From Lunularia cruciata (lineage: Eukaryota; Streptophyta; Marchantiopsida; Lunulariales; Lunulariaceae): a stretch of DNA of 64,000 bases. Positions 1 through 49,271 of this stretch are shown here, piece after piece. The translations under genes were made by a program, and so were the position numbers. The DNA lies in the NCBI GenBank assembly GCA_948567375.1, contig OX419761.1, positions 61,045,089-61,109,088 on the forward strand, read 5' to 3'. Under the pieces are notes generated by a model. It was not told the origin of the DNA. It did no database searches and was given only the letters and a program-made list of their open reading frames with translations. Each line of letters begins with the position of its first letter. The stretch's first letter is position 1.

Positions 1-758
1 AAGACCTGAAACTCCCCCAAGAACTCTGTACCCTGATCAGTCAAAACCTCAGCTGGTGCACCAAAATGACTAAGAACTCGATCCAGGAACGAGTGACCTA
101 TCCCTTCACTAGACTTGTCAGGAAGTGCCACCAACTCAATCCACTTGTAGAAGTGCTCCACCATCACCAAAACATACTGATGATGTCTCACAGTCAGCGG
201 TAAAGGTCCGGCAAAGTCCAAACTCCAACGGAAACCCAATCCCATGATAGGTAATAGGTGTAACTATGGCGTAGGAGCATTGAATGATGCTCTGACTCGG
301 TCACAAACCACACATCTGGCAACAAATTGTTGTACCTCGGTATGCATACCGCACCACCAATAATGACTCTGGAGTAAGCTATATGTACGCTTTACTCCAA
401 AATGTCCTAGCTCCTCATGAGTATGACGGACCAACTGTGGTCTCTATGATGGAAGTGGTACTACTTGCACTCTACCATCCTCCCATACACGCAAAAGGTG
501 TCTACCCTCCAATCTGAACCGTCTGGCTTGCTGAAGAACACGGTTTCTCTCCTTGGCTCCAACTATGCCACCCACAACACCAGTGCAAAGATAGTCCATC
601 ACTAAGACATCATCATGAATGTCTCGCTGAACTATACCAATATCTTCACTCTTTGGATCTGTGACCTCAATAACTCCTCTTGTATGCACTAAGAGAGATA
701 CCACCAAAGCCTCTGCAAATATACATAGAAAGGCCGATGCATGCCAACCTGGCACCAT
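1..758 (-). pseudogene. Integrase of the methyltransferase gypsy element (partial, broken)
   Basis: The integrase would splice the cDNA into the host genome. From 758 leftwards there is an N-terminal spacer, then an HHCC zinc-binding module near 340-425 (HEELGH, then a CVVC pair) followed by the catalytic core. The first catalytic Asp is in DFAGPL and the second in TDQGTEF near the left edge; the catalytic Glu would lie outside the window. Two in-frame TAG codons interrupt it, one just before the HHCC module (stop at 444-446) and one between HHCC and core. It is in the same frame as RT and RNase H. The presence of a chromodomain cannot be judged because the C-terminus is missing. Confidence 0.85.
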
Positions 759-794: not shown

Positions 795-1256
795 CTGATC
801 CTACTGGCTGGGACATGGGTTTCTACTCAACCCATCTGCATCACGGTTCACCACTCTAGGTCTGTGCACAATCGTGAAATCATACTCCTGTAAAATCAGA
901 GCCCATTGTGCAAGCTTCCCTGAAAGCTTGTCGGACTCCATCAACCACTTCAGCGGTTGATGATCAATGATGAGAGTGAAGGGGTTACCAAACATGTAAC
1001 ATCGGAAATGTGCTACTGCCCAAACTGCTGCCAAGCACTCTCCCTCATATGAACTATACTTTGCCTCTGCTGAATTGTTGGAGCGACTAGCCTAGGCCAC
1101 CATAAACTCCTTCTCCTCATCATCATGTTGGGTGAGCACCGCTCCAAGCCCCAACATACTCCAATCAGTGTGAACCTAAAATGGTCATCCCTTGATTGGT
1201 CTCCTCAAAATAGGAGCAGATGTCAACCTCTCCTTGAGCTCTACAAAAGCTCTCTC
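795..1256 (-). pseudogene. RNase H domain of the methyltransferase gypsy element (broken)
   Basis: This domain follows RT in the same frame and would degrade the RNA template during reverse transcription. Visible marks are HTDWSMLGLGAVL (first acidic residue), SSYEGECLAAVWAV, LIIDHQPLKWL and the terminal RDADGLSR block, all typical of plant Ty3/gypsy RNase H. Several in-frame stops (TAG at 1257, then a TGA and further TAGs in the first third) break the frame; the remaining 801-1034 stretch is open. A long open frame on the opposite strand here (1125-1517) is an antisense shadow. Confidence 0.85.
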
Positions 1257-2190
1257 CTACTCATCTCCCCAACACCACTCTTGTGTAAGCCTAGTCAGCT
1301 TCGTCAAGGCCTTGGCAATGGCACTAAATTGTCTAACATAGCGGCGATAGAAGTTCACCAACCCAAGGAATGCTCGCACTCTGCTCACATCCGTAGGCCA
1401 AGGAATACGTGCAATAGCCTCCACCTTGGTCTGCTTAACACCAAGTCCTCCGGGGTAGATAGTGTGACCCAAATACTCAACCTGCTTGTAGAAGAACCTA
1501 CACTTCCCAAGATGTAATTTGAGTCCATGAGATCTCAACCTCTCAAACACCTCTAACAATTGTCTCTCATGCTCCTCCACAGTAGTGCTATAAACCAAAA
1601 TGTCATCAATATAGCACCAAGCAAAATCCAATCTAGCTAGGATCCTATCCATGACCCTGTGGAACTCGGCAGGAGCATTCTTTAACCCAAATGGTAAGAA
1701 CTTCCACTGATATAACACATCCTTGCCGTGAGGATCAATAGCCCAAAATGCTGTCTTGGACTTATCCTCCTCCTTGATCGGCAATTGATGATATCCCGCT
1801 CAAAGATCCAAAGTACTAAAGACCTTTGCATGCCCAATCGCATCAAAAATCTCCTCCGGTGTAGGCATGGCATACCAATCAGCCCTGGTCTGTTGGTTGA
1901 TAGGACGGTAATCTCCACACATCCGCCTATCTGTATAGTTGCCATGCATATCCTTCTTGGCTGGCATCACTGTCGCTGATGCATACTCTTCATGTGAAAT
2001 CTCTACTAAACCAGCCTCAAAAAGGTCACTACTCCGGCTCTGAATCAATGTCCTCTCCATCTCACTATATCGATAAGGACGTCTGAAAACTGGTGTGTTG
2101 CTAGTCAGCTCAATCCGTATACCAGGTCCCTTCAGAGCACCCAAATCTTTCATACTGAAGGCAAAACAACTCGTGTGACTCCTCAAGAAC
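1257..2190 (-). pseudogene. Reverse transcriptase of the methyltransferase gypsy element (broken)
   Basis: The RT starts in FAFSMKDLGALKGPG near 2165. It continues through RRPYRYSEMER, the motif MCGDYRPINQQT, then KTAFW, FLPFGLKNAPAEF and the catalytic YIDDIL (about residues 58-63 of the 1257-1784 segment). The connection FLGLVNFYRRYV follows. A TGA at 1800-1802 sits exactly where family members have the Arg codon of the DLR-GYHQ motif, consistent with CGA to TGA. The start lies in a different frame from gag-protease-methyltransferase; the upstream residues EGLEVLEE are in yet another frame, so an indel is present near 2170. Length and motif order are normal for Ty3/gypsy. Confidence 0.92.
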
Positions 2191-2653
2191 CTCCAAACCC
2201 TCCGTCTTTCCTCTCCAATAAGCTTGGGTCCAAGATCTGGCTCCCAAGTATCCTCTGTAACTGTAGTAGGAGTGGAAGATATACTGATTGACTGACTGAC
2301 TGCTACACTTGGCCCTTGGGAGCAATAGTGTCATGCTCCCGACCACTAGAGGTCCCAACCTCTGTGTGAAAAACTCCCTCCACTCTGGCTGCAAGCTCCA
2401 CACGTCCTCTGGCTGCATCCCATGTGGACCAAGGGTGTAATCCAAGTAGCCCATGCTCACCTAGATGGACTCCAAGTAGACCACTCTCCCTAGTAGCTAC
2501 TGGATGTGTACCAAGAATACCATGTCCACTCGGTCCATCGCCCCCAGCATGTGCCTGAATCGTCTCGATAGGCACAGGGCTCACAAGTGTCCGAGTGGTG
2601 ATGCCTATCAAGTGCATCCTACGCTGCTCTCCCAAGCCAAGGCTCACAATCTA
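2191..2653 (-). pseudogene. Linker between methyltransferase and RT, frame-shifted
   Basis: Coding-like sequence joins the end of the methyltransferase (stop at 2651-2653) to RT. One frame (2303-2647) continues the gag-methyltransferase frame, is rich in Gly and His, and has no recognised domain. A second frame (2110-2460) carries the residues immediately before RT. At least two frame changes are therefore needed to connect methyltransferase to RT. Whether one was an original programmed frameshift cannot be told from a single decayed copy. Confidence 0.6.
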
Positions 2654-3691
2654 GGTCAAACAATTCAGGTCCATAGCCTGACCTAACACCTGATGCCTGG
2701 ATGCCTCTGACACTACTAGAACGGCGGTAATACCGGTGCAAAAACCCATCACCCGCTCTCTCTCATCAGCGTTGGGCTCCACCAATTGCTGTAATTGTGA
2801 GTCCCAAACAAGTCCAAGTCCTCCTTCTCAAAAAGCATGAGAGCCTAGGAAACTCATGAGTGTGGGAAATGCAGCTCTAGGCTGTCCAACTAGGTTCACC
2901 ACTGCCATAGGTGACCTATCAGCCACGACCACTGTCTAAGATTGACGCCCAACATCCAAGATATCATCAACAAGAATATGGTCCAGTCGCTGAATCCCAT
3001 CATAAGCACGCTGTAGAACCTCTCTGGGTAAGAGGTACCAAAGATGAAGACGATGAGCCCGTGATCCCACTTTGGCTGCATTTAACAATACAGTAGGTCC
3101 CATCCAAGAATGGACTTGATGTGTACTCGCCACCACTCTAGTGCGAGAATCAACCATCAAGGGAACGTTCTCTAAAAGGTAAGCTGGAGAAACAGACTGA
3201 TGAACCTGGAGATGTCGTAGTATCCGTAACATCTCCCAAAACACACCAGAACAAGGATCTTGAAGACCCAAACTGCGGCCCACACGTGTATGTCCCTGAC
3301 ATGGCCATCTAGAAATCACCAAGTGAATAGGTCCATGTCTCTCTAGGTCATGCGCTCCCAATAAGGAAATGTCTCCTGGTAGGGCCTTTTGGTAACCTCT
3401 GACTGCTAACATCGGTAATAACTCCGGATACCGATAGGCCAAGTGTGCCACGTGATGTAGAGAGACTTGCCTAGCAGTCTCATCTCTCTCTATATACAAG
3501 CACCTCTGTACTCGAATACCCACATGTAACACCGCAGCTAGTCCGGTGCTGATCCCACCAAACAAATCCAATAGGCATATCCCCTCTACTAGATACTGCC
3601 AAGCAATGAGTGTGGTATCTAGAGGTGTCAAAGCAATTGCTTCTGGAGGCTCATCCTCACACTCATCCCCTGATGGTACAAAGGCTCCACT
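2654..3691 (-). pseudogene. C5 cytosine DNA methyltransferase domain embedded in gypsy pol
   Basis: The domain would transfer a methyl group from S-adenosylmethionine to C5 of cytosine. Numbering from 3631, motif I is LLDLFGGISTGLAAVL (residues 20-35, SAM binding), motif IV is WPCQGHT (109-115, catalytic Cys codon TGT at 3299-3301) and motif VI is LLENVP (152-157). Motif VIII-like GSRAHRLHLWY is at 189-199. After an in-frame TAG (2936-2938) and TGA (2828-2830) come motif IX-like PRAAFPTL with ADERERVMGF, and motif X-like LGQAMDLN, ending at a TAG (2651-2653). It is separated from the protease by one TAG (3692-3694) with no frame change. The relation to host families (CMT, DRM, MET1, DNMT3) cannot be settled by eye. 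It resembles retrotransposon-borne methyltransferases known from charophyte algae and dinoflagellates. This copy cannot make a full protein. Confidence 0.9.
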
Positions 3692-4780
3692 CTAAGCCTG
3701 CTGCACCAACTGATCTGCATGCTGTTGCAATGCCTCCTCTGAACTCCACAATGGAACATCCAAGGTGGATTGAACAATCCCACTCGTACTCCAAAGCCGA
3801 GTGATCTCCTCTGGTACTGGAGTATCCTCTGCATGGGCGTTCCCCTCCAACAAGTCACCAGGCCAAGTAACTGCACCGTTGAAAGCCAAAACTGATGTTG
3901 CCATGGTCCCGGACTGTAGTGAGCCAAGACTGCTACTACTGAAACGTACTAGTAGGCGACATACCCGTCCCTCACCAGACTGCCAACCAGGTCTATAAGA
4001 GGTTGTCTCCTCCCAATAGTCAATGCTGAAACCCATGGGGTATAACATTGCTCCCCCAACTAGCACATCATATGACTCAGCTATCGCCGCAATAGCCTGA
4101 GCTCTCACCACCGAGCTATTAGTTGGATGACCAGGTTGAACCTGGACAACAAGCTCCCCACGTGTGATGTATTGTGTCGAACCACCACCTAGAGATGTCT
4201 GGATCTGAAATGGACACCTCTTCACATCGGTCTTCCGTAACTCCAGACCGACAACTGCAGCCTTCCTCAACACAAAGGGCTGCGCACCAGAGTCTAACAA
4301 GACTCTCTGTGGTATATAGACCTTCCTTGAAGGTCCCACCAAACAAAAAATCCCCTTCTGGTTATCCAATAGGACAACACCAGGTGTAAACCGCGCTCTC
4401 TCAAAGGCCGGTCTAGCTGGCAACTCTTCCAGTCTAGCCGCTACTGCCTGCCATAAACCATTGGTTGCTGAACGGATCCCATGCTCCTCAACCAAGTCAG
4501 CTCCACTACCAACCACCTCTGCTCTAGTAGTAGGAACTGCACCATCCCTACTCTCACACAATGTGGCAGCCAACCTGAATACTGGGGCTGGGTCAACTCC
4601 CAATGTAAACATGTCACTGGCTGAAAACAAAGGATGCCGCATAATCAGTTGAGCCGCCCCCAACATCATGCTAGGCTCAGTCTGTGTAGTAGCAGGTGGC
4701 TGACTAGCAAGTACTCCATCAAGTACTCCATCACCACCCACCACACCTGCACTAGGATGTCTAGGAACCATGGATGTCGT
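3692..4780 (-). pseudogene. Retroviral-type aspartic protease region of the methyltransferase gypsy element
   Basis: The 359-residue open stretch has an Ala/Gly-rich N-terminal half and a pepsin-like retroviral protease half. The active-site motif is VLLDSGAQPFVL with Asp at residue 160. The flap-like and C-terminal part runs through SYDVLVGGAMLYPMGFSID. This enzyme would cleave the Gag-Pol polyprotein. It is in frame with gag upstream (TAG at 4781-4783) and methyltransferase downstream (TAG at 3692-3694). Both stops fit CAG to TAG changes, so the ancestral element probably encoded gag-PR-methyltransferase as one polyprotein. Confidence 0.85.
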
Positions 4781-6478
4781 CTAAAATGCCTCGGATAGCG
4801 TGAAAGACTGGGGAAGTCTGACCTGTCTCCCAACCTCTCCTCTCTGTGGGTCCAACTCCACTGATGCTCCTCTGGGCTCTGGAGCACGTACTGCACTCCT
4901 AGTCACTACTGCAGATGCATCCACCTGTGTTGCTCCACACATGAAGTCCAAAGCATCTCTATCACCAGCATATGAGGTAGAAGCCTCAGCACCCAAATCT
5001 GATCTCCTCTTAGCAATAGCCATACTAGCCAATCTCTGCTCCAACTGCTCAATCCGAGTAGCCATAGTTGTGTCAAAAGTAAGGGCAGGTACTGCACTCC
5101 TACTAGGTGTAGATCCTCTACCACCACCTCTACCACCTTGTCCTCCATGAACTAGAGCTCCTCTACTACCTGCCATAGCAGCCCTACCACTCCGTAACTC
5201 CGGGTGTAGGTCAAAACACCGATCACTAGTGTGACCAAATCTGTGGCAGTGCTCACACTGCCTCTGTGCTGGCTGTGATGCACCAGAGGTATCAGGTCCG
5301 CTGCCTTGAGTACACTCTCTCCTATGGTGAGGTCCACCACAAGTCCAACAAGCAACACCACCACTCATTGGTTGCTGCTGACTCAAAAATGAGAGTAAGG
5401 GTCTAACTCCACTAGGCCCTCCACTCACTCCATATGATCTGGGCTGTCCACCCTGTCCTCGAAAACCAACTAGGCATGGTGCACTCTGCTGCACTCTAGA
5501 AGAAGTCACAGCCATGGATGAGGTCTCCCTACCAAATCCAGATGTCACCACTCTCTCCTCCACCATGTTGAGCTCAATACGCTCAGCCAAACCAAAGACT
5601 ACTGCCAAAGTGGGTGAAGTAGCCTACAACAACGTAGCATCACGAACTCTACATCGCAACTCCCTGTCCAGTATCCCATACCAAAACTGGACTGCCTGGG
5701 CCTCAGTAACTCCCTGAGTGAAACTGATCAGCCGCCTCATGCGAGTGTATGCCTCGCGTAGGCTCTCTCCAGCCTTCCGCTTGAACTCTTGCAAGCTCCT
5801 CAGCTTGTTAGTCCGCACTCCTTGGTAGTTCTGCCTCAAACACAGGAAGAACTCCACCATGGGGTTAAACCCCGGTACCACACCACCTCCTGCAGCGGTA
5901 CCTCCACTCATAGTAGCACTATCTCCAGCTAGTGCACCTCCACTAGCTCCACCAACACTACTCGAGCTAGAACTCGTAGGTACAGCCGACCTACTCTTGG
6001 CCACCAAACCTGAAGTGATAGAGACATAGTTCGGAGACCAATATTGTCTCCATAACTCGATCTCCTCCAAATGAGCTCTCTTGAACTCATGGTAGTCATC
6101 CATCGGTGGACCCTCCAAGTGCTGAAACAACCCCTTCCATGCCATGAAGGGTGTGAACAAAGTCGAGTTCCACATCTGTTGCAGATCACACCAACTGTCA
6201 AACTACTGGATGAAGTCATCCAACTCAATGGTACCCACTATACCAGAGTAACGCCTAGGGCCTTTGGAGGCCCCATAAATCTTGTCCATGTCCCACAACA
6301 ACGGTGCGGACACACCAAGTGCACTCTCAACTAAATCAACTCTTGTGTCGAACTCCAACTCAGAGTCAATCTCCTCCCTCACTGGGACCGGAGATACAAG
6401 CTGATACCAAGCACCACTCCGAGTAAACCCACTGCGTACTACAGGGCTAACTCCTCTGGAATCTCCAAAGAACTCCAT
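4781..6478 (-). pseudogene. Gag polyprotein with two zinc knuckles (broken)
   Basis: Gag would form the virus-like particle and bind the RNA. The likely start is ATG at 6478 (MEFFGDSRG), chosen because it opens a run homologous in style to other gag N-termini; an upstream extension to 6583 is probably leader. The capsid-like core (5624-6175) contains LREAYTRMRRLISFTQGV and VQFWYGILDREL. The nucleocapsid part has a C-x2-C-x3-H-x4-C knuckle (CWTCGGPHHRREC) and a canonical C-x2-C-x4-H-x4-C knuckle (CEHCHRFGHTSDRC), followed by a Gly/Arg-rich stretch that can bind nucleic acid. In-frame TAG codons at 6203 and 5624 break it; all pieces are in one frame. Confidence 0.85.
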
Positions 6479-6910
6479 CGTGACAAAGTAACCACAACAG
6501 CAAACCCAAACCACCAACTGCAACCGCAAGTCGCAACCGCAAGTACCCCACCAAGTGCCAACACCACCACGTGCCAACACCAACTAAACACCACCCACTA
6601 ATGTAACTCTACCAAGATAACTACACTAGGGGAAAGGGCAACCTGTAACTTGCCATCATAACACGCACTGTCACTATCTGCAGGTCATCACTTCCTGCCT
6701 CACCGGAGAGAAACAAAGGTAGTCTGACTGGTCATCACTCTAGCCTCACCACCGAGAGCACACCAGAGCACCAACGCTCAAAAGTCAAAGCACCTCACAC
6801 AAACGTGGTGCACAAACAAGAAGTAGAGAATAGAGGGGATCCAATCACAAGAAATCTAAACAAAAACCCTCCATCTCATAACACAACACGGGACTGACTC
6901 TGCCACCATT
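6479..6910 (-). other. 5' leader of the methyltransferase gypsy element with candidate primer-binding site
   Basis: Untranslated leader between LTR and gag. At its upstream end (6892-6908, minus) is TGGTGGCAGAGTCAGTC. It starts TGG like every LTR-element primer site and resembles the initiator-Met site TGGTATCAGAGC with changes; it sits two bases after a CA that would end the LTR. The matching tRNA is not certain. Confidence 0.5.
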
Positions 6911-7412: not shown

Positions 7413-8002
7413 CGTAAACCCTAAAGATGGTTGTCCGCCAAATCCCCGCTAACTTTCCACTCGAGCCAAATTGACAAAACAGGTTTTTCCAAATCACAAA
7501 TTCATGAGAAAAGCTTCCCAACTCCACCTTCAATTTGACTTTCTAAGCCCAATTCACAGCAAATTGGTCCTGCTTTCACCTCTTGAGCTCAAAATCACAA
7601 CACTGCTCGAAAATTGCTCCTTCTTTGCTCAAAATTTGGCCAGCGCTTCCGCACACCATCCGCCTAACTGCCAAATTTGCATCAACTGAACGAGCTTCTG
7701 CACACTAGGGAAACACAGAACTTGAATCGAGCCACCACGATCTACCGAGCTTGGAGATACCACCAACACTCAACGTTCCTACACCCGATTTCCCCCTGAC
7801 TTCACTTCTCTGATGTAATCAGATTGCTTACAACTCTCAACTCAACTCAACACAGATCAGTATTTGATTTGTCACTCTATAAACTGCCAACAACTAGGCA
7901 CTGATTACAGTCAAGCCACACCCACTCAAGCATAGAGAATCCAAGTGACGCTCGCCGGCCTCTATCCACCATAGCCAAGAACTCGATGGCTCAACATCAG
8001 AG

Positions 8003-8026
8003 AAGTGAGCTCTCTGGAGCTCACTT
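8003..8026. promoter_or_regulatory. Perfect palindrome in the LTR
   Basis: Arms AAGTGAGCTC and GAGCTCACTT are separated by 4 bp. The same palindrome with the same arms is conserved in the solo LTR at 21708-21731. It is degraded in the older copy near 8787-8810. It lies upstream of the TATA-like TTTATAG, so a role in LTR transcription is possible. Confidence 0.5.
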
Positions 8027-8264
8027 CAAAACTATACCCCTTGGACTCGAGCTAGCACTGAAACCCTAACGGTCCCGCTGACGGCACACTTGACGGTGCA
8101 AATGGTGCAAAGTGACGGTGGGCCCCACCGTGAAGTCAGTACCCTGAACACCAAATCTGACCGTCGGAAAGTAGTCTCTGAGATATTGCTGAAATAACTC
8201 TAACTACTATCACTGCAACTCCAATGTCCGAGCATCTAGACGCGGCACTACAAATGGCGTGACA

Positions 8265-9047
8265 AATTTAAGAGATCCCCAAGTCCTTTGTTGATCTTGA
8301 AAACCCCTGAATCCATTGCCAACATAGCCCAATTTCTCCAATTTGAGAGATAAGGTTTTCCAAATCCTTAATTTGAGAAGATAGGTTTCACAATCCGCAT
8401 CCAATTTTGCTTTTTAGGTCCAATTTGTAACACCAAGGCCTCTAATTTCACTCTCTTGTCCTCAAATTGAACATCTATTGATTCAAGATTGACCTCAATT
8501 TTGAGAAAATTGTGCATCACTTTTAAACACCGCCTGCCCCATTGTCAAATCTACAACAAATTGAACAAAGCTTCACCAACGCCTTAGTTCCTATACCCAA
8601 TTTCTCACTTCTTTGATATAATCAATTCAAACTCAACTCAAATCAGAATAAATCATTAAACTCAATGGTCTACCAACAACAAGCCATGATTACATTAAAC
8701 CACACTCACTCTAGCTAAAAGATTCCAAGTGATGTTCATCGGCCTCTATCCACCATAGTCAAGAGCTCAAAGGATCAACATTAGAGAAGGGAGTTCTTTG
8801 GAGTTGCACTTTGAAGGTATACCCCTCTACTCGATTTGACTCTCCAGCTCTAACGGTACCGTTGATGGCATATTTGACGGTGTGAATGGTGCAAGTGAAT
8901 GTGGATTCCATGGTATGATCAATAATCCTAACACAAAATCTAACCACGATTATGTAGTCTCTAAGCAACTACTAATATAACTATGACCGCCAAGACTATC
9001 ATTCCAATATCCAAGCAAACTAGCTTTGGTGTTACAAATGCGTGACA
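8265..9047 (-). repeat. Older diverged LTR-like copy of the same gypsy family
   Basis: It aligns throughout with the neighbouring LTR (7480-8264) but with many substitutions. Shared landmarks are the outer end TGTCACGCATTTGTAACACC (from 9047), the block around CATCGGCCTCTATCCACCATAG, the region with CGGTACCGTTGATGGCA, and the inner CCAATTTGTAACACCAAGG segment. Its inner end is cut exactly where the younger LTR begins, as if the younger element landed inside it. Confidence 0.65.
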
Positions 9048-10015: not shown

Positions 10016-11056
10016 AAGAACTAACTCAGTAGTTTTCGTAAGCTATCAAGAGTTCGTGTATCCGTCCGAGCATTTCTTCTTCCTTCATCTTCCCTAGACA
10101 CTACTGCAGGCAAGACGGATACGATAGTCAAGGCTGACCTAAGAGACACTTCAGTACGGCATCATAGACGCAGGCCTTTCCAGAAAAGACGATCTTAGAA
10201 TATGTCCATCAAAAACGGCTCAAGCGTTGCAGTATGCGTATAGTGTAGTGTAGCGTTTCGTTGTCGTTTGTCGCGATTCCAACCTTTGCTATGGGTATCT
10301 GTGAGCCAGGTGGCCGAAGAGCGTAGGCAATCGTAATTCATTGGTAAGGACATCAGCGAACGAAAAGGGCGTAGAAAACACGAAGGATGGCCGTACAAGG
10401 GTGAGACAAAATAGGTATAACTCTAAGGACTTCAGCTAGTGGCTTCAATAGCGTGCCAAACTGGGCGGCCCGTGAAAGTTTGGGAAGTTGAAGCAGGGGA
10501 TCATTCATTGAAGTGCATACATCCTTTTATATTCCTTGATTCGTTTGCAGACCTTGAAGAAAAGGCGAGAAAAATGTAGCTCAACTTATGGGGAGAATCA
10601 AAGTTCTCCGTGGTGGCGGCTAATAGTAGAGAATTATCTCCGGCGAATTACCTGGTGCTGTGTACTACTGAACGAAGCAGTGTAGTTTCCAATGTCGCAG
10701 ACGCCTCAGTCACTTTCACAGCTTGTCCTGTTTAATGTTGGTGCACTGCTGGAGACAGCTATGGTTTAAATGCAGAAATCAGTTCATTCTCTGACTTCGC
10801 CACCTTGCTCATTGTGGACTTGTTTCTCTGAAGTATAGAGCTTGTCTACCAACAAACTTAAAGGGAGTACCTCAAGTTGCGAGGTCTCCGTGGATAAGTT
10901 GTACGCTGGTCGAAGCTCAATGATCGTTTTATGTCGGCATCGAGCTAGGAGAGGACCTCCATATTCAGTCATTAGCTGTGTTTTTGAAGCCATCAGTCAG
11001 TCGGATTGAACTGCGCACAAACTGCAAGCAGTGGCGTGCAAGAACGAGTGGTCACA
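10016..11056 (+). other. Upstream region and 5' leader of the CAT gene
   Basis: Less AT-rich than the flanking repeats. I see no repeat family and no supported open frame; short minus-strand frames are unsupported. An ATG at 11006 is in frame with the CAT coding sequence and could add 17 residues, but the start at 11057 fits family N-termini better. No TATA box or transcription start can be placed with confidence. Confidence 0.5.
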
Positions 11057-14000
11057 ATGGGGAGGTTCTTACCTGAGGAATCTTTCCGGAACTTCAAAGC
11101 TTACCGGCTAGCACTCTCACACACTCCCCAGAGATTTCGACAACGCCTATTTGCGAGATCGTCTGTTTCAGAAGAAACAGGGGAGCTTGTAAAGCGAAGC
11201 GGAGGGGGCCTGAAGAAGAATCTCACATGGTGGGATCTGATGTGGTTCACAATTGGCGCAGTCATTGGTGCGGGCGTCTTTGTTCTTACCGGTCAAGAAG
11301 CTCATGAAACAGCAGGTCCTGCTATCATCCTCTCATACGCGGCTGCAGGTTTTGCGGCCTTGCTCGCTGTCTTCTGCTACACAGAGTTCGCATGTGAGAT
11401 TCCTGTAGCAGGTCAGTCCCGCTTTCATCCCTGTCAGGATTGCCAAATTCGCTTTATGCATAGACCGTCAGTGTGAAATCTGTTCTGACAGTAATTATCG
11501 TGGTAAATTTCCGCTCTGTCGTAAATTTGTGATCTAACATTCAAAGTGTGTTCTACTCAACATGCGTCTTGATACCCCATTATTGTACCTTTATAACTCA
11601 TGATCCTATTAGAGGCCGTGAACATGTTCAATGGAGAGTTTCGCAAAACCTCGAGTTCCGGGCCATGTGCAGAGGTTGTAAGCTGTTCAATTTGTGATCG
11701 TAGAGATCCTTTTTCATCGTGAACAGTAAGTTCCCGGTTGGGCCGATATCAAATAATGCTTTGTAACTGTCACTTAGTGCTAAGCCATAGAGTAATACCC
11801 TGATACGACTACTCTAGTGAATTACCGGGCATGAATCGCAGAAGCCTATGTGCTCGTGTGCACCCTATGTTCGTTAGTTGTTAGCTTGTCAGATTCCGGC
11901 TGGATCTGCGGAAATTACTTTAGACTCCAGATTGTCGTTTTCTGTCTAGGATTTGTTCCCGGATCCATTCACGTCAGAAGCGGACGGGGATAAAGCGTTG
12001 TCGTGGCCTGCCCTGGATTAGTGCGATGGAGGGAAGTCTTTTATTAGTTCTAGTTCATGTGTCTGACTTGAACAAGGCCATTTCGTATCGTTTTAAGTAA
12101 AGTGATGCTGTGCTGAAAGGTCAGATCATCCCCGTACCTGGGGAATTCGGACTAGGAGCACCTTCAAAAGTTCAGAGACCCACCATAGAGGCCTTCTGCA
12201 AAGTATTTATGCTATAATCTCCGTTTGTGCTTGAGTTCTATGTGATCTTTCTATCTTATATTTTGAGTCTCTCAGTATCAACATCAAGAGCAATGGCGTT
12301 GCCTATGCACAATTTCGGTCTTAGTCATTCGCTTGATGCAAAAGTCACTCGGTACAGCGTTGCGGTCGCGACATTATCACTGACAGCATTTGCGGCTCTA
12401 TGGCATTATGAAAATTTACTGCCTTTCCTCGAATCCAACTAAGCATTTTCGCAGTTTGAGAAAACAATTCTACGACTTATATATTTCAGTTTAGCGGCCC
12501 TCCACTTTTCCTAAACGAATTGTGATGTTTTTATTTCGACTGATTGTAGTCCAAAGATTGGTAATTGCTAATGAGTGAAGCTGTAAAGGGGGTTATTTAT
12601 GAAAATGGACAAAATATTGACAACTTCTACGAGGTTGGAAAACAGGGCTAGAATCACATTTCAGGAATGACACCATGTGAGTCTGGGTTCTCACACCATA
12701 CGTGCCTGACAAAAATGTTCGGGTGACTGACAGGAGGATCCTTTGCCTACTTGAGAGTGGAGCTCGGAGATTTTGTAGCCTTCATTGGAGCTGGCAATAT
12801 TATCCTTGAGTATATTATAGGAGGAGCTGCTGTTGCCCGAGCGTGGACCGATTACTTCACTGCATTGATCGACAAACAGCCGGACGACTTGCGGATTCAC
12901 ACAGGTTTAGCCCACAACTACAATATGCTGGACCCTATCGCCGTCGGGGTGCTGATAGTTACGATGTGTATTGCTATCTACAGCACCAAGGGCACTTCTA
13001 TCCTCAACTGGATTGCTTCAATCGTCAACATGGCTATCATATTATTTATCATCATCGCCGGACTCAGGCATGCAGAACCCGAAAATTACAGACCCTTCAG
13101 TCCTTTTGGCGCCCACGGCATGTTCAAAGCAGCTTCGGTGCTCTTCTTTGCATACTTGGGGTTCGATGCTATTTCAACTATGGCGGAAGAAACGAATGAC
13201 CCGGGAAGAGACATTCCAATTGGACTAGTTTCAGCCATGCTCATAACCACCGTTGTCTACTGTCTCATGGCTTTGACCCTTTGTCTCATGGTACCTTATG
13301 AGCAAATTAACTCGAGCGCAGGTTTCTCTTATGCTTTCGAGTCCGTCGGGATGAAGTGGGCCAAATATGTAGTGGCGCTGGGTGCATTGAAGGGTATGAC
13401 CACGGTGATTCTTGTCAGCAACATCGGGCAGGCGCGCTACATAACGCATATTGCTCGGACGCATATGATTCCCTCATTCTTCGCGAAAGTAAATAGCTGG
13501 ACCCAAACTCCAATCAATGCCACGGTGGCCATGATTTTGGCCACCTGCGTGGTGGCCTTCTTCTCGGATTTGTCGGTTCTGGGCAATCTTCTCTCTGTGA
13601 GCACGCTGGTTATCTTCTCTTTGGTGGCCCTTGCCCTTCTAGTTCGGCGACATTACGATCCCGTGCAAACCACCGCACAAGAATCCAGAATCTTCCTCAT
13701 CTCCTTGATGGTCCTTATTGCCGCTTCGGTAGGAATTGCTGGCTATTGGGCTTCCACTACCGAAGAAAATAAAGGATGGGTAGGGTACTGTATTGCAGTG
13801 CCCATCTGGTTTTCAGCTACTCTAGCCATCCAGCTCTTCTGTCCACAGCGCCGGAAACCAAAAGTTTGGGGTGTGCCGTTTGTGCCGTGGATTCCATCTC
13901 TGACTATCGCGTTCAATTTCTTCCTTTTGGGTTCTTTGGACAAAGACTCCTTCATCCGCTTTGCAATCTGGACGGGTGTTATACTACTTTACTATTTCTT

Positions 14001-14154
14001 CTTCGGACTGCATGCTTCTTACGATGCCGCAGCAGACCACAAACAGGCAGTGGAGCCCTACAGTGAGGACCACGTGGAGGGCCTTGGGGACCTGAAGGCA
14101 AAACAGACTCAGCCTAGAGACGAAGATAACAAACAGATGGCAATCGGGCCTTGA
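11057..14154 (+). CDS. Cationic amino acid transporter (CAT family, APC superfamily), two exons
   Basis: A proton-coupled importer of basic and other amino acids in a plant membrane. The predicted CDS is join(11057..11411, 12734..14154), 591 residues, the usual CAT length. Exon 1 carries the family N-terminus (FLPEESF), TWWDLMWF and the first membrane segment GAVIGAGVFVLTG. The splice recreates the conserved AGGSFAYLRVELGDF across a phase-1 intron. Exon 2 has GNIILEYIIGGAAVAR, DPIAVGV, LFFAYLGFDAISTMAEET, NPGRDIPIG (here DPGRDIPIG), GMTTVILVSNIGQARY and VPFVPWIPS. The many hydrophobic stretches fit about 14 membrane segments. The closest Arabidopsis group by eye is CAT1/CAT5/CAT8, recognised from FLPEESF and GIGAVIGAG-like motifs. 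No frame disruption is seen. The plasma membrane is the likely location, by family. The paralogue within the family is not certain. Confidence 0.95.
11412..12733 (+). other. Intron of the CAT gene
   Basis: A 1322-bp intron with GTCAGT at the 5' site and CTGACAG at the 3' site (phase 1, after the first base of a Gly codon). Joining restores the family block VAGGSFAYLRVE. I see no transposon or RNA gene inside; a 71-codon frame at 12227-12442 has no support. Confidence 0.93.
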
Positions 14155-30160: not shown

Positions 30161-32218
30161 TCAAAAGCGTTTCTTTTTGTTGACAAATATCTTGTCTCTT
30201 CTAAACCAGACATAAACTACTGATCCTACACACGATACAAAGACAAGACTCCAAAGCCATGGATATGGAGGATCCTTGTAACAAATCATAGTGGCTTCGA
30301 AGTCACCAGACGCGGTGTATGCAAGATTGTGAATAGCAAACAGATCATGCTCTGCTGATTTGAGAAAGTAAAGCCCCGTCTTGAAGTCAAAGTGTGAGAT
30401 AGTTGACACGGCCCTGTCCAATTTGTAGACGAACAAATTCCATCGTTGCAAAAATTCCAAGTGCCTCTTCTGTCCAAAAAGCTTCTTCTCCCCACCATGC
30501 ACCTTTATAGTTTCTAAGAGATCAAGGGCTGTCGAGATGGACTGGTTCAGCATTGAGTAAAGAACGTTCCGTGGAGCTGCATCCTTTTGGGCAAATGACA
30601 GTGACATACTATCGGAGAATGGACCAAATGGCGTCTGCCCAACAGCCCATCTGTAGTCTACCAAAGAGCTGTTGTGTTGAGCACTCCAAGTCAAATGTGT
30701 AGGTGCAACGCCCCACAATGTCTGTAGAAGGGCGCCTACAATCGGCCTTTCTAGCATACGAGTTTGTGCCACCATAGGTCGACCATTGCAGCTATACTCA
30801 GTTACCACTTGGGCTGCCTTGCTTCGTACAGCTATAACCATGTCTCGAAAAGGGATCACCTGGTGATAGCGGTCCAGAAGCAGCTGCCGATCAGAATCTA
30901 CATCCAAGATGTAGATGGGAAGTATATGTGCTGAACTTGCACGATCTATTTCCATTTTCTCTTCCAAGTCGGTACCAAACTCAGAGAGAAACTCATGAAG
31001 TTGCTTCGAGTCCAAGTAGTCATCAACGAAAAGACTATACCTTTCTAAGAAAACTCGAGCAGTGAACGTCCTGTGAGCACGAGCTAGGGCTGCTGCGCAT
31101 ATAGGACACTTCGCAAACTTCAGATTGAAGTACTTGAACGTCAAACTTTGTTTTGGCAACATCAGGCTCTCCTTCTCCTTCAAAAATGCCTCTTTGATAA
31201 GTTCCAGCTCGATACCTTTGCTATCTTCTGTGGTATTCGCGCCTTGTATGTGGATCAGATGAACTTCTATATCTTGCTCAAAAGATACAGGTATCCGAAC
31301 GGATGGTACGAACAGCAGACGCGCAGCACTCCAGATCATTGCGGCCAGATCTGCAAGTAGAACATTCTGGAACTGGTTCAAGCCGTAGGACTGAGCAGAA
31401 GGGAACATTTCCCCTTTAACATACCCCTCTCCAGAACTTGAAGGGCCATACTCTACAGGACCGGCAGCAATGTCTATCCACATGTAACGGTCCTTCCCTG
31501 TCCAGAAAGTCCCGAGGCACTTGGTGAAATAGTTGGACTGACCTCCAGTCCCATACTCGTACCCGTAGTTGGATTCCTGTGCACGACTGTTGAGAATATA
31601 CACCGTGTATGAAGAGAGTGGCTTCTCCAAATCTGCCTGGATGATATCGTCGACAATGCTGTAAGGTACAGCTTGAATTGGATTGTAATTAAACCGAACA
31701 CCTGAAGCTGCTGGAGGTGTACTATCCAGGTGCGCTTTGACAGCACTGAAAACTTTGTCTGCCAACTGCCGGCCAACCCTAGTAACCTCTACGGAGATCT
31801 TCGTTTTGATCATCAATTCATGGGCCTCGGATCCTATAACACTAACACGAAGCTCCTGGTTTAGAGCGTCGATATAGCGGGCAAGTTGAGATTCCAATTG
31901 GCTCTTAGTTCGGTCATCATCACCCGGAAATCCAACAAGTTTGACATTGATTAGGGTGGTAGATTCAATGCCAAAAAGACTCTGAATTTTTTTGTTCGTG
32001 TCGAAGCTGGGATCTTTAACGAGGAACTTCTTTAGGGCTGGTGACAGAGAGAAGAAAATGTCATTATCAGCCAAGGGATCGCTCTGAGCTTGATTGAGTG
32101 CACTGTCCAGACCATATCCTATGCTAGAAGCGACCAACCAGCTATTGCAAAGGATCACTATCAAAACCATAGAAAATGATATCCCGCTCCTCATGTCTCC
32201 TAAAGCACATGTGCCCAT
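30161..32218 (-). CDS. Plant-specific single-pass membrane protein (At3g28720-like / SPOT1-related family)
   Basis: An uninterrupted 685-residue open frame. An N-terminal hydrophobic segment (about residues 13-31, FSMVLIVILCNSWLVASS) reads as a signal peptide, followed by a long extracytosolic-type domain and one C-terminal membrane segment (about 650-672) with a short basic tail ending KKKRF. A CPIC pair is at 371-374. It matches, by recollection, the uncharacterised plant family of Arabidopsis At3g28720 (about the same length) and the longer At5g58100/SPOT1, implicated in pollen exine patterning. The molecular function is unknown; location in the endomembrane system is inferred. Start chosen at 32218; Met9 is an alternative. 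No introns are seen, unlike the CAT gene. The frame is intact, so it is probably functional. Confidence 0.88.
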   Translation of the reverse strand: MGTCALGDMRSGISFSMVLIVILCNSWLVASSIGYGLDSALNQAQSDPLADNDIFFSLSPALKKFLVKDPSFDTNKKIQSLFGIESTTLINVKLVGFPGDDDRTKSQLESQLARYIDALNQELRVSVIGSEAHELMIKTKISVEVTRVGRQLADKVFSAVKAHLDSTPPAASGVRFNYNPIQAVPYSIVDDIIQADLEKPLSSYTVYILNSRAQESNYGYEYGTGGQSNYFTKCLGTFWTGKDRYMWIDIAAGPVEYGPSSSGEGYVKGEMFPSAQSYGLNQFQNVLLADLAAMIWSAARLLFVPSVRIPVSFEQDIEVHLIHIQGANTTEDSKGIELELIKEAFLKEKESLMLPKQSLTFKYFNLKFAKCPICAAALARAHRTFTARVFLERYSLFVDDYLDSKQLHEFLSEFGTDLEEKMEIDRASSAHILPIYILDVDSDRQLLLDRYHQVIPFRDMVIAVRSKAAQVVTEYSCNGRPMVAQTRMLERPIVGALLQTLWGVAPTHLTWSAQHNSSLVDYRWAVGQTPFGPFSDSMSLSFAQKDAAPRNVLYSMLNQSISTALDLLETIKVHGGEKKLFGQKRHLEFLQRWNLFVYKLDRAVSTISHFDFKTGLYFLKSAEHDLFAIHNLAYTASGDFEATMICYKDPPYPWLWSLVFVSCVGSVVYVWFRRDKIFVNKKKRF

Positions 32219-33009
32219 GTCAAACTAGATTTCGGCTCCTTCGATTTCAGTGAGCGCAAGAGCATTCGTCTCCTCTTGAGTGGAAGCTGGTGTTCGGCCT
32301 GAAACAGTGGGCTATATTATGGACTTTTCGACAGAATTTCATCGCAAACTCTGCAAGACTTCAAGAGATCCTCAATCGAGACCTACTCTGAGAATTGGAG
32401 CAAAACGCACTGATCATGTTGGAAAGCATCCAAAACAAACGGATGTCCTCACGGATCATCCATTTCTCTACTTGTGAGTGACAATCTTGATTGTAAGCTT
32501 CTCCCAACCATGGGAGCAGGAGCAAGACGCAGACGAACTCAAATCGAAATCTGAATGTTAATACCAAAATCGACCACTGATTCCAAGGAACATGTAAGGC
32601 GTCGATGACCTACCTCAAACTAGTTGCTGCCAGCTTCGCACAGCTTGATCAGCTCATGATCGATGTAAATCTCCTCGCGAGCTGTCCCAACATTAGCAGG
32701 GATTCGACTGGACTCAAGATACAGAAAGGAAAGTGTTTTTCCTTGTGGTTCCGATATTAGCCATACTTGTGATTATACCATACGGAGAATAGCAGGCCGA
32801 CTCCCCGCATGGTCTGCATTGCCAATAGAACTCGCTAACGTATTTGGTATCAGAAACCCCTATACGTGTGTATAACTCCGTCTCCATATCTGAAGTGTTC
32901 GGCAAATGATGGCCGGCATCCACTACTTCCCGGGAAACAACTGCATGAAAGTAAGAAGAACTTGGAAGTTTTCGATCATAATGGATTAGTCAGAACCGAT
33001 TCTATCCAT
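32219..33009. other. Upstream region of the membrane protein gene
   Basis: The probable promoter and 5' leader of the minus-strand gene. Short frames on both strands are unsupported. No repeat family is recognised, and no TATA box or transcription start is assigned. Confidence 0.45.
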
Positions 33010-44736: not shown

Positions 44737-44752
44737 GACCTCCCTCCTTTTA
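44737..44752 (-). other. Polypurine tract of the chromovirus
   Basis: Minus strand TAAAAGGAGGGAGGTC directly abuts the 3' LTR, as required for plus-strand DNA priming during reverse transcription. Confidence 0.85.
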
Positions 44753-45526
44753 AGACGCAACGTCCTCGTTGTGCAATTGTTGCTCAAATGCTTGCACCAA
44801 CACCGGTGCATGTGCCAAATTGGCAGCGGGCTCCCAGGTTGCTTCATAGAGGGGGTAACCTTTCCATTGTACTAGATATTCCACCTGCGGATGGCGAGTA
44901 CCACGCATGCGCTTTTGGAGAATCCGCTCCACTTCATATTCCTCTGTGCCATCAATGAGTGTCGGACAAGGTTGAATGTCTTGTGTGGAAGGACCTTGGC
45001 CTGATCGGGGAGCATATCTGCGTAGTAGGGAGACATGGAACATTGGATGGATCTTCATGTGTGGTGGTAGCTCAAGGTGATAGGCCACAGCGCCGATGCG
45101 ACGAAGAATCAAGAAAGGCCTAATAAAACGAGGTCTGAGCTTACGAGATCCAACTAATGTTAGGTTGGTTGTTGATAGCCACAATTGATCCCCAACATTG
45201 AACTCCATGTGCCTCCGGTGTGCATCAGCATACTACTTTTGTCGATTTTGTGCAATCTGTAACCTATGCCTAGCGCTCTCCACACCTTGTTGGATTCTAG
45301 AAACAAATGTGTTGACTGCATCAACCTTGGTAGTCACTGGACGGATCTTCATCAAGCTAGAAGGTGTGAAGGGATGCTCACCATACATGAGGAAGAACGG
45401 AGTGACCTGAGTGGACGCATTCATTGAGTTGTTGTAAGCTAATTCCACCAACGGTAATAGAGTTTCCCACCTCTCTTGCTCTTCTAAGGGGAAGCCGCGT
45501 AACATGTCTTCAATTGTGCAATTTGC
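44750..45526 (-). pseudogene. Integrase C-terminal region and chromodomain of the chromovirus
   Basis: 45233-45505 has the late integrase segment (LPLVELAYNNSMNASTQVTPF, MYGEHP). After an in-frame TAG comes 44750-45208 with the GPF/Y-like part (RKLRPRFIRPFLILRRIG) and HPMFHVSLLRRY. The chromodomain follows at residues 91-145, with YEVERIL, YLVQWKGYP and ATWEP and its aromatic residues preserved. The chromodomain would direct integration to chromatin carrying methylated histone H3. A TGA at 45527 separates this part from the catalytic core; the same frame continues through all three pieces. Confidence 0.92.
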
Positions 45527-46317
45527 TCACTTTGTTTGGCCATCTGTTTGTGGGTGGTAAGCTGTGGTTATGGCCAACTTGGTTTTGAAGAAACCAAAGA
45601 GTGTTTGCCAAAACAAACTGGTGAATTGGGTACCTCTATCGGTGATGAGTACTCTAGACAAGCCATGGTGAGCAAAGACTGCATCTAAGTATAGTTGAGC
45701 TAGTTGTAGAGCGGTCATCTCCTTGGTGGTAGGGTGTACATGAATCATTTTGTTGAGCCGGTCCACAAAGACCACAATGGAGTCAAACCCTAAGGTGGTC
45801 TTGGGTAATTCATAGACGAGATCTATACTCACTTGTTCCCAACGTTGGGTAGGAGTGGGGAGAGGTTGAAGGAGCCCTGCAGGAGCTTGATTAAAAGCTT
45901 TTTTTGTTGACAAAGTAGGCAGCTATGCACATAGTCCATCACGTCGTTGCTCATCTTGGGCCAATAGTAATGGCGCTTGACTGCATCCAAGGTCTTGTCC
46001 ACTCCGGCATGAGTTGCAATGGCCAAATCATGACATTCTGCTAGAATGGTGGTGCATAATTCTGGGACATTTGGGATCCATAATCTGCCATCCCGAAAGG
46101 TGAGTCCTTGGGTGCTGGTGACGCCTTTGGACGATTGTGCTTCGACAATCTGTGGATCAGTTTTTGTAGCAGCTAGAATCTCTTGCCAGAACTCAAGGTT
46201 AATCTTAACCTCTGCCACCAAGTTGTTGGCCATTGGCATGCGGGTGAATGCATCTGCAAGTTTCTTCTTACCTTCCACGTAGGTGATTGTCATGTTGAAG
46301 CGTTGTTGCCACTCTGC
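45527..46317 (-). pseudogene. Integrase zinc-binding and catalytic core of the chromovirus, frameshifted
   Basis: The HHCC module (ECHDL, HAGVDKT, YYWPKM, CLLCQQKK) lies in the RT frame within 45829-46293. The catalytic core continues in another frame (45527-45913). The change falls at an A7 run on the coding strand (45899-45905), consistent with a one-base slip. Catalytic Asp residues are in SIDLVYELP and ITDRGTQF. The position of the catalytic Glu is Lys (DGQTK), directly followed by a TGA, so the enzyme is doubly inactivated. Confidence 0.88.
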
Positions 46318-47517
46318 CTACCAAATTTGGCGACGAGATAGATCCTTTTGCGTCTTGAGGTAGACTAGAGGTTTGTGGTCTGTCTTTACTACAAATGCCT
46401 TCTCGCCCAGGTAGTGCTTCCAATGCTTGGTTGCTAGAATGATGGCCAGCTCTTCTTGTTGTGTGGTGTGGTAGTTGTGCTCTGCCGGTAACAACTTTTG
46501 AGAGAAATATGCAATTGGATGCCATCCATCATGCCACTCTTGTTGTAGGACTGCTCCTATGGCTACGCCTGATGCATCTATAGCCAACTTGATTGGACGT
46601 TTTGGGTCATACCACTTCAAGATTGGTGCATGTAGCAAGGCGGCCTTCAATTCTTGAAAGGCCAACTCTTGTGCCGTTCCCCATGTCCACTTCTTCCCCT
46701 TGCCAAGAAGTGCCATTAAAGGTTGTGCAACCTTGGAGAAGTCCTTGACAAATCTATGATAGAATCCCGTCAACCCCAAGAAGCTCTTAAGTTGAGTCTG
46801 ATCTTCTGGGGCACTCCATTTTTGAATGACCTCTATTTTATCTGTCAATACTTGAATGCCCTTTGCACTTACTCTATGCCCTAAGTAGTCTACTTCAGAC
46901 TTGCCAAACTCACACTTTGAGATTTTGGCGTACAATTGATTTTGTCTTAGAATCTGGAGGACCTCTCGTAGATGTTGTTTGTGTTCTGTCATTGTGCTAC
47001 TATATACTAAGATATCATCCAAGAAGACGATAACAGACTTATCCAAGTATGGACAAAATATGTCATTTATTAGACTCATGAAAGTGGCAGGCGCATTGGT
47101 GAGGCCAAAAGGCATCACAAGATACTCAAAGTGGCCATACCTGGCTCAAAAGGCAGTTTTGTACACATCCTCCTCTGCAATTCGGATTTGATTGTAACCG
47201 CTCCGCAAGTCCAGTTTGGTGAAGTATCTCGCTCCATGGAGTTGATCAAACAAGTCATCCATGCGAGGTAAGGGGTATTTGTTCTTCATTGTTTGCTGAT
47301 TGAGACCCCGATAGTCAATGCACATGCGCATTGTACCATCCTTCTTCTTCACAAACAAGACAAGGGCCCCATATGGTGATACGCTAGGTTGGATGAACCC
47401 TTTCTGTAGCATCTCCTCAATTTGAGTCTTACACTCCTCCAACTCATGAGGTGATAGGCAATATGGGGCCTTACAAGGAGGTGTCTTCCCCGGGAGTGTC
47501 TCTATTTTGTGATCTAC
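46318..47517 (-). pseudogene. Reverse transcriptase and RNase H of the chromovirus
   Basis: RT begins in 47146-47442 ([44 protein letters not shown]). After a TGA at 47146-47148 it continues in frame with [12 protein letters not shown] and the catalytic [10 protein letters not shown], then [11 protein letters not shown]. RNase H follows with [26 protein letters not shown] and [14 protein letters not shown] at 46318-46320 ends the open stretch just before the integrase. Motif spacing is normal. Except for those stops the domain is well preserved. Confidence 0.93.
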
Positions 47518-48173
47518 TCACCTTTTAGGTGGTAATCCTGAGGGTAGATCATCGGCAAAGACATCTTGAAACTCATCCACCACATCCTTCAATTTCTCTA
47601 GAATTTGTCCAGCAAGTTGTGCACTCTGGACTTCTCTTATTAGACCCATAAAACATCTATCGGTCTTACAGACAGTTGTTGTCCCTACAACATATAGAGG
47701 CAGTTTCTGCCTGTGTGATTTTTCTGTAACCCCAATGATTGACCATTGGTGGGTTCTCACTACTTTCTTCCTCCAATCCACAATTGGGTTGTACTTCTCC
47801 ATCCATGGCATGCCTAAAATTGCATCATAACGGGCTAACTGTATCACTCGCCACTCAATTGCTTCTTGATATTCTCCTACAGAGAGGGTTACCCGTCTAG
47901 GTAATGATTCAATCCTCTCTGTTTGCCCATTTGGTAACTCTACTTCTTCACTTCCATCTCTCTCTAGATCCATTCCCAATCTTATTGCAACAGAGCGAGA
48001 CAAGAAATTCTCTGTTGCTCCTGGATCTATTAATACTCTCACTTGATTACCTTCTAGGATTCCATTCACAACAATCAGTTGAGAGGTTGCCTTTCGTGCT
48101 CTTTGCGCATTATTCTTCTTCCTTCCCTTGCTTCTCTACTTCCTTATTGAGCCAATAAGGCCGCAAGGTACAT
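47518..48173 (-). pseudogene. Aspartic protease of the chromovirus
   Basis: The 183-residue stretch has the active-site motif VLIDPGATENFLS (Asp-Pro-Gly-Ala instead of the commoner Asp-Ser-Gly-Ala), followed by LPNGQTERIESLPRRV and AILGMPWMEKYNPIVDW. It is in the RT frame and joined to RT by an in-frame TGA at 47518-47520. Gag upstream is in a different frame, so a frameshift separates gag from pol. Confidence 0.88.
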
Positions 48174-49271
48174 TTACTGGTGATCTTTGTTTTCCGAAGT
48201 GGTTTCCACCTCCTCCTCTTCAATGTGCCTCTCCATGTTGTTCAAAGCTCGCCTGTACAAAGGCCGAGGGCCTCTAGGGAAATGAGTGCAACAATTGGTA
48301 GATATGTGCCCAATACGGCCACAATTGTAACAACGGCGTTGTTCTTCTCGAGTCCTTTCTCCTTGTGGGGCTCCATCTTTTCGTTCTTCTACCCATCCCT
48401 GCTCTCCTTGAAGTGGTCGTGCTCCTCGATCCCGGAATCGAAGGTTGCCCAATTCCATTGGTATTGGTCTACCCATGTGTGGCATTTCTGCGCAATAATG
48501 TTGAGGTGGAACTACTCCTTCACCTCCACCTAATGCTCTTGCTATTCTCTACGCACAAGCAATGGCTTCAAATACCGTACGAGGGTTTTGCACCATGACT
48601 TCTTGGCGAATCCGCTCTTTCAACCCTCGTTTGAAATTGTCGAGAGCCTCTGCTGGACTCATTTCGGTAATTGCAACTTGTAGATCCAGAAATGCCTCCA
48701 CATACTCTTGTACGCTATTCTTCTGTCTCAATCCCCATAGTCGGGTTCGAGCCATCTGCACAGAATCCACCGATTGGAAATTCTTCAGCAATCCTTCTTG
48801 CATTGCTATCCATGTGACCTCCCTTCTCTCTGCCAGCATGGATCGTTCCCAAACATCATACCATGTGAGGGCTTTATCCGTCAAGTACCCACATGCAAAC
48901 ACGCCTGCAACATGCTCAGTGATCTCTGTTGAGAACAATAGGAAATATTGATTCATTCTTGAGATCTAATTTTCCACTACTCCCATCGTATGCTGCCCCT
49001 TGTAAGGCTCGATGTTGCAGGTCTTCTTCATCCGGAGTAGCAATGTGGCTTCACTGTTGATAGGGTTCGTGGGCACGGGTGCCTCTCCAAGCACTTCAGT
49101 CGCAGGTACAGGGTTTTGAGGTGGCTCTTCTTCTTGCATGGCTTGATTGTTCCTCAGGATCTGCACTTGACTTTGTAATGTCTCCATGGTCATCTTAATC
49201 TCTCGAAATTCATTCAACATCCCTTGCACCAGCTCTTGCAACTGCGGATCCATAGTTCCTGCAACATCCAA
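48174..49271 (-). pseudogene. Gag of the chromovirus with one zinc knuckle
   Basis: The likely start is ATG at 49253 (MDPQLQELV) or 49271. The coiled-coil-like N-terminus (EFREIKMTMETLQSQVQIL) precedes the gag core with ALTWYDVW, LLKNFQSVDSVQMARTRLW, VQEYVEAFLDLQ and EALDNFKRGLK. The knuckle CYNCGRIGHISTNC (C-x2-C-x4-H-x4-C) is in 48174-48485. In-frame TAGs at 48966 and 48549 interrupt it; the final TAA at 48174 may be the natural gag end. All gag pieces share one frame, different from pol. Confidence 0.9.

Follow-up and report, generated by a model that had tools for sequence, protein, structure and literature searches.

We detected, in a 64,000-nt stretch of the Lunularia cruciata genome (the window, analysed at its full length), a copy of a Ty3/gypsy-type retrotransposon with a captured DNMT3-type DNA methyltransferase that is maintained by selection; from the sequence comparisons this identity and anatomy are practically certain. 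The original prediction had read the motifs of a C5 methyltransferase in the correct order between an aspartic protease and a reverse transcriptase (RT) on the minus strand, and its coordinates, including the catalytic Cys codon at 3299-3301, proved correct. The likeness goes far beyond chance, with 58 homologues at E up to 0.01, the best of them at 7.4e-96 with 65% identity over the whole piece, and Pfam matched PF00145 to window positions 2936-3691 (E 5.7e-6). The window copy has the following features.

7816..8264, minus strand: repeat A1 (449 nt), the 5' end of the element, starting TGTCACGC; 93.8% identical to A2
8265-8268: target duplication AATT, 4 bp, outward of A1
2303..6583, minus strand: ORF1 frame, Gag-protease-methyltransferase, a single frame with 7 internal stops in this copy
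5624..6202, minus strand: Gag piece, weak Retrotrans_gag match (PF03732, E 0.013, below the cut-off)
4283..4294, minus strand: aspartic protease active site DSGA, as a sequence motif
2651..3619 (ends approximate), minus strand: DNMT3-type C5 methyltransferase domain, by PF00145, homologues, and the PDB and fold matches of relatives
3554-3568, minus strand: methyltransferase motif I
3299-3301, minus strand: methyltransferase catalytic Cys
3164-3172, minus strand: methyltransferase ENV motif
about 2741-2767, minus strand: methyltransferase motif X, DERERVMGF
2297..2305, minus strand: end of ORF1, TAG then CAGTCA, a UAG-CARYYA context
1257..2330, minus strand: RT, PF00078 (RVT_1) E 4.7e-26, YIDD at 1602-1613, in another frame than ORF1
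801..1091, minus strand: RNase H, PF17917 (RT_RNaseH) E 2.1e-22
3..263, minus strand: start of the DDE integrase core, PF00665 (rve) E 1.6e-7, just under its cut-off

Starting at 8264, the element extends past base 1 of the window by 1,634 bases, and its 3' end and the larger part of the integrase fall outside; by the family layout, the integrase, a PHD finger and the repeats B1-A2-B2 lie there. The window copy is dead, since its ORF1 has the seven internal stops besides the natural terminal TAG and its RT is read in a different frame. Four of these stops lie within or next to the methyltransferase, at positions where most aligned relatives read W, Q, R and W, and each is reachable by a single C-to-T or G-to-A transition. 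The motif VIII region of this methyltransferase is without residues present in the relatives, the Pfam scan gave no protease match in the protease piece, and Rfam and tRNA scans of the window found nothing.

ORF1 is uninterrupted in other copies of the host genome (566 Mb, 74 contigs searched), unlike in the window copy. The methyltransferase piece as query gave 11,878 first-look candidates; 150 were scored, and all of these had E below 1e-148 and identity of 90% or more. The original prediction had proposed to look for intact family members; 104 of the 150 matches are stop-free, and seven have a 1,428-aa open frame without a stop. The host genome contains at least 150 close copies of the element. 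The RT query produced 37,718 candidates, and ten of the best 150, which were scored, had a 1,037-aa open frame without a stop. From these top 150 matches to the RT, a selection biased towards close copies, 20 copies were taken in even steps, ignoring the methyltransferase. All 20 carry the methyltransferase at the expected place, and it is thus a fixed part of the element family, many copies of which are decaying: PCQG was readable in frame in 18, and 15 had at least one stop in the methyltransferase-tail stretch. A one-off insertion, the outcome that had been named as refuting the prediction, would leave copies lacking the domain, and there were 0 among the 20. Judged from these copies, the family is large and young in its host.

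A profile built from the methyltransferases of 13 relatives matched DNMT3A (1.6e-19) and DNMT3B (2.2e-18) among PDB entries. It also matched 4onj (1e-10), which we take to be a DRM, and DRM2 (1.8e-7), both over half the domain, as would be expected of a rearranged enzyme, and HaeIII (5e-7), bacterial enzymes (from 5e-7), DNMT2 (1.6e-4) and DNMT1 (0.96). Foldseek with a model of the methyltransferase of the environmental contig L008 (pLDDT 70, pTM 0.75, several stretches under 50) returned DNMT3-family structures in all of the best 50 of 1,047 matches (best E 4.4e-14, TM 0.73 by target length). By profile and fold, the element enzyme is a non-rearranged DNMT3, closer to DNMT3 than to DNMT1, DNMT2 and the bacterial C5 enzymes.

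The tree had 33 rows: 28 element enzymes from liverworts, Sphagnum and environmental contigs, together with DNMT3A, a host DNMT3, a host DRM and two bacterial/phage enzymes. The 28 element enzymes form one clade (support 100/99.9), which groups with DNMT3A, host DNMT3 and host DRM (97/97) in a tree whose only other rows are the two bacterial/phage enzymes. The place of the clade within DNMT3 is unsure, because long branches meet among the outgroups. The window enzyme falls within a bryophyte group (100/99), and so does another host copy in the 33-row tree. The host has its own DNMT3, apparently intron-split, and two DRM-like genes, all named by reading of motifs. The host element enzyme is 27% identical to host DNMT3 over 142 residues, 28% identical to a DNMT3A fragment and 52% identical to L008. 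Descent from a recent copy of a host gene was likewise foreseen as a refutation, and a tree joining the host element enzyme with host DNMT3 was rejected (p-AU 1.2e-7).

The motifs PCQG, ENVP and DERERAMGF are kept in nine of nine open host copies and vary little or not at all in alignments of 13 and 20 relatives that reach down to about 40% identity. We consider it highly probable that the methyltransferase is functional in intact copies and, given a functional enzyme, probable that DNA is its substrate.

The element ends were compared across ten copies: that of the window plus nine selected because their ORF1 is open. All ten have the order B (about 107 nt) - A (about 449 nt) - B at the 3' side, with a B1 match of 107 nt in nine copies and 78 nt in the window copy, and the 5' side starts with A and has no B. 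A1 matches A2 over about 450 nt in nine of the ten copies; one open-ORF1 copy has an A1 of 77 nt only, and in one copy the leader carries an additional short B-A junction piece. Identity of A1 to A2 is 96.5-99.3% in eight of the nine open copies and 93.8% in the window copy. A 4-bp target duplication, read by eye, is found at the outer ends of all ten copies. Ordinary LTRs were rejected, the full repeat not being at both ends and the 5' end being A without B. The DIRS order was also rejected, in view of the rve integrase and of the 4-bp duplications in 10/10 copies; DIRS elements carry a tyrosine recombinase and are not known to make a target duplication. On its sequence, the element is of Ty3/gypsy type with DIRS-like split repeats, A-coding-B-A-B. 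This layout is the one given for DIRS elements in PMC5890265, where the Klebsormidium nitens element is described as sharing the DIRS layout and having gypsy-like domains. Just upstream of the window element, at 8697-8803, lies an older remnant that resembles a portion of repeat A at about 81%, and the same region gave a 71% match to repeat A over 433 nt.

ORF1 is predicted to end at a leaky stop of the TMV type, UAG-CARYYA, as a candidate read-through site. UAG-CARYYA is described as the TMV-type read-through signal, with TMV read-through in plants measured at 32% by a reporter assay and at lower levels in stable plants (PMC2754532). In the nine open host copies ORF1 ends TAG CAGCCA, and in the window copy TAG CAGTCA. 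The frame runs open from the TAG into ORF2, which encodes RT, RNase H, DDE integrase and a PHD finger in the same frame as ORF1, in six of the nine; two of the other three have ORF2 in the TAG frame further on, and one does not. L008, which closes on itself via a 127-nt repeat, has an ORF1 (Gag-protease-methyltransferase) that ends AAG TAG CAA TCA and is followed in the same frame by RT-RNase H-integrase-PHD. Among fetched loci, both strands considered, the TAG is present in 41 of 41 distinct host copies and CARYYA in 40, the remaining one being gapped, while 7 of the 2348 TAGs on both strands of the window carry CARYYA. Among host copies the hexamer shows no higher conservation than the sequence around it, as expected of young copies; the case for a leaky stop draws its weight from the fact that the host element and L008, whose methyltransferases are 52% identical, both have TAG-CARYYA. 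In fifteen environmental ORF1 proteins (P0133-P0141, P0143-P0148) the chain stops 129-189 residues after motif X begins, and no RT motif is present. A programmed -1 frameshift from methyltransferase to RT, which the frames of the window copy suggest, was rejected because reading continues in frame past the TAG in the six open-ORF1 copies and in L008.

A PHD finger was detected by Pfam at the end of ORF2 in a host copy (E 2.2e-10), in L008 (4.3e-10), in a Marchantia protein (4.4e-9) and in two environmental elements (2.3e-9 and 9.7e-7), and a PHD motif pattern matched five of the nine open-ORF1 host copies. Its nearest solved structures include the PHD fingers of CHD4, PHF12, KMT2D, UHRF1, KDM5, PHF21A and AIRE, several of which read H3 unmodified at K4 or R2. 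The C-terminal PHD finger of the integrase thus resembles, at the level of sequence, readers of the histone H3 tail; ORF1 had no other reader domain above the Pfam cut-off.

Protein searches named Calypogeia fissa, Marchantia polymorpha, Sphagnum troendelagicum and S. tenellum as hosts of relatives, and gave a partial methyltransferase match, without motif IV, in Closterium sp. NIES-53. No vascular plant name stood among the relatives listed, and no K. nitens record among the matches listed, in three protein searches, one of them read as the best 120 of 339 and two of which scored only the candidates sharing most words with the query. The order protease to methyltransferase is found in Sphagnum P0062, Calypogeia P0071 and Marchantia P0119, a DSGA motif lies upstream of the methyltransferase in relatives, and L008 has protease Pfam matches. 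The order methyltransferase to RT is found in Marchantia P0125 and in environmental P0156 and P0161, the latter two having both domains in one frame without a stop. In P0163 and P0169 a methyltransferase-like domain lies between RNase H and integrase, with a Pfam match in P0163 only (E 0.05). In P0156, P0161, P0163, P0165, P0166, P0168 and P0169 motif IV has Glu-Cys where Pro-Cys is usual, the catalytic Cys being retained, and the activity of these relatives is doubtful. Over the pairs compared, RT and methyltransferase identities rank broadly alike, as expected if both travel together.

A scan of a viral collection gave seven loci with 26-40% identity over short stretches, none of which resembles the element, and a scan of a genome collection gave one element contig, L008, and four Streptomyces loci. 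L008 (1-9285) is apparently an intact eukaryotic retroelement filed in a cyanobacterial MAG, and P0106 is named an Obscuribacterales protein; both records probably reflect contamination of prokaryote records by such elements, L008 probably being misbinned.

Selection was analysed on the nine open-ORF1 host copies, with 206 two-state sites and with neutral draws that excluded stops to match the chosen openness. In the methyltransferase, 33 of 61 sites were non-synonymous (0.541 against a neutral 0.708 +/- 0.063; 7 of 1000 draws as low), with pN/pS 0.37. The non-synonymous fraction was 0.618 in Gag (23 of 1000 draws as low) and 0.5 of 14 sites in the tail (21 of 1000), and the protease-containing stretch looks neutral (461 of 1000 draws). 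These counts indicate that the methyltransferase domain is under purifying selection. C-to-T or G-to-A made up 158 of the 206 changes, and C-to-T change per site was 18.5% at CG, 15.5% at CHG and 2.4% at CHH. Such a footprint is expected of CG and CHG methylation on the host copies, by whatever enzyme, and can reflect host silencing alone.

We propose the following function for the enzyme. ORF1 alone would be the bulk product, so that each particle would hold many methyltransferase domains beside Gag, and occasional read-through of the UAG would supply the polymerase (RT-RNase H-integrase). If the UAG leaks as in TMV, the methyltransferase would be in every ORF1 product, which would point to a role either inside the particle or on newly made cDNA. 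The most likely substrate of the enzyme is cytosine in the element's own double-stranded cDNA, while this is within the particle or on its way out, or else cytosine at the insertion site, and a new copy would arrive already bearing the mark that the host places on its repeats. Methylation of cDNA has already been proposed for a retroelement enzyme (PMC5890265). Insertion is most likely guided by the integrase PHD finger, through recognition of a histone H3 tail. Methyltransferase dosage at the level of Gag is not universal, since relatives differ in frame (P0156 and P0161, with one frame) or in position (P0163 and P0169, between RNase H and integrase).

That the element has the identity and anatomy described, that the enzyme is functional in intact copies and that DNA is its substrate is, taken jointly, the moderately favoured reading. 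Given a DNA substrate, its own cDNA or the insertion site is the target we would favour, by a modest preference; adding this target to the joint reading makes a whole that we hold only tentatively. A wider proposal, somewhat less probable again and best regarded as speculative, is that the element carries a PHD reader of unmodified H3 tails on its integrase and a DNMT3 writer produced in Gag-like amounts by the leaky stop, that it inserts where H3 is unmarked and methylates the DNA there, and that a single capture of this set predates land plants, with its spread continuing in bryophytes today. It would be the retroelement parallel of the animal ADD-plus-DNMT3 pairing.

The alternative that survives best, although we consider it unlikely, is that the enzyme restrains the element or manipulates host silencing, for instance by keeping its own copies down or targeting host DNA, instead of marking new cDNA. 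The strong CG/CHG deamination footprint on host copies would fit this, and a slowing of retrotransposition is among the possibilities given in PMC5890265; however, the many young copies look unrestrained, and the host DNMT3 and DRM-like genes can explain the footprint. It is improbable that the fold has been retained as a binder of RNA or cDNA inside the particle, with DNA methylation not its task. The position of the methyltransferase beside Gag, the inactivity of the K. nitens domain in yeast (PMC5890265) and the Glu-Cys motif IV of the seven relatives speak for binding, but PCQG, ENVP and DERERAMGF are kept in all nine open copies, PCQG also in 18 of the 20 RT-selected ones, and motif IV, ENVP and motif X are near-invariant in the 13 and 20 aligned relatives.

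Marking of new cDNA or of the insertion site remains our preferred function, and its history has an alternative of its own. The strategy of a retroelement-borne methyltransferase was suggested to persist or to have arisen again in a land-plant lineage; this was supported, and persistence fits better because the elements form one clade, the RT and methyltransferase identities rank alike and the split repeats are as in KnitGypsy-Dnmt3. Most likely, on these comparisons, the strategy persisted from algae into bryophytes. Independent capture of DNMT3 by the bryophyte elements and the charophyte element is quite improbable: the link to the K. nitens element rests on anatomy, which leaves such a capture some room, but the split repeats and domain content are shared, the bryophyte elements form their clade with diverse environmental elements, and the identities of RT and methyltransferase rank broadly alike. 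A one-off insertion or recent copy of the host DNMT3 gene can be dismissed, with 0 of 20 RT-selected copies lacking the domain, a p-AU of 1.2e-7 and 27% identity over 142 residues.

Retrotransposon-borne C5 methyltransferases were earlier known, as the original prediction stated, from dinoflagellates and charophyte algae; among them are SymbioDIRS-Dnmt3 and KnitGypsy-Dnmt3 (PMC5890265). Compared by description, KnitGypsy-Dnmt3 of K. nitens and the host element share Gypsy domain content, a non-rearranged DNMT3 in the polyprotein, DIRS-like split repeats and purifying selection (PMC5890265). Methylated copies were measured for KnitGypsy-Dnmt3, whereas the host element has the mutational footprint only, and the K. 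nitens domain had no activity in yeast, a result that its authors call inconclusive (PMC5890265). The host element differs in its bryophyte host, large family, predicted leaky UAG at the end of the methyltransferase frame and C-terminal PHD finger; the words PHD and readthrough are absent from the main text of PMC5890265. SymbioDIRS-Dnmt3 likewise has a DNMT3 in a retroelement with A-coding-B-A-B repeats, but it has a tyrosine recombinase (PMC5890265) where the host element has a DDE integrase and 4-bp target duplications.

Animal DNMT3A/3B are the best sequence and fold match of the element enzyme and have the same motif order; the element enzyme differs in being part of a retroelement polyprotein and in its low identity (28%, to the DNMT3A fragment). 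Chromoviruses share with the host element a Ty3/gypsy Pol and a domain of histone-reader type at the integrase C-terminus, but the host element has a PHD finger in place of the chromodomain, and a methyltransferase in addition. Chromodomains are thought to steer chromovirus insertion.

A search of the literature, judged by titles, abstract openings and text passages, found no description of such elements in bryophytes, nor of a PHD finger or leaky UAG in them. The kind of element is known from K. nitens; what appears to be new is the bryophyte hosts, the size and youth of the family, the PHD finger and the predicted leaky stop that follows the methyltransferase; both of these last features may well occur in the K. 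nitens elements too. The large young bryophyte family and the copies in Marchantia polymorpha make the purpose of the enzyme testable in land plants, and the leaky stop and PHD finger yield concrete predictions on dosage and targeting.

The window contains a second Ty3/gypsy element at 44750-48965 (minus strand), a chromovirus with SH3_Tf2-1 and chromodomain matches at its end and no methyltransferase match in the three pieces scanned, and a further RT fragment at 53614-54051 (plus strand; RVT_1 E 7.7e-15). Two frames at 10988-14154 (plus strand) match amino acid permease and are apparently exons of one gene, and an open 687-aa frame with DUF7906 at 30161-32224 (minus strand) is apparently a host gene with one long exon.
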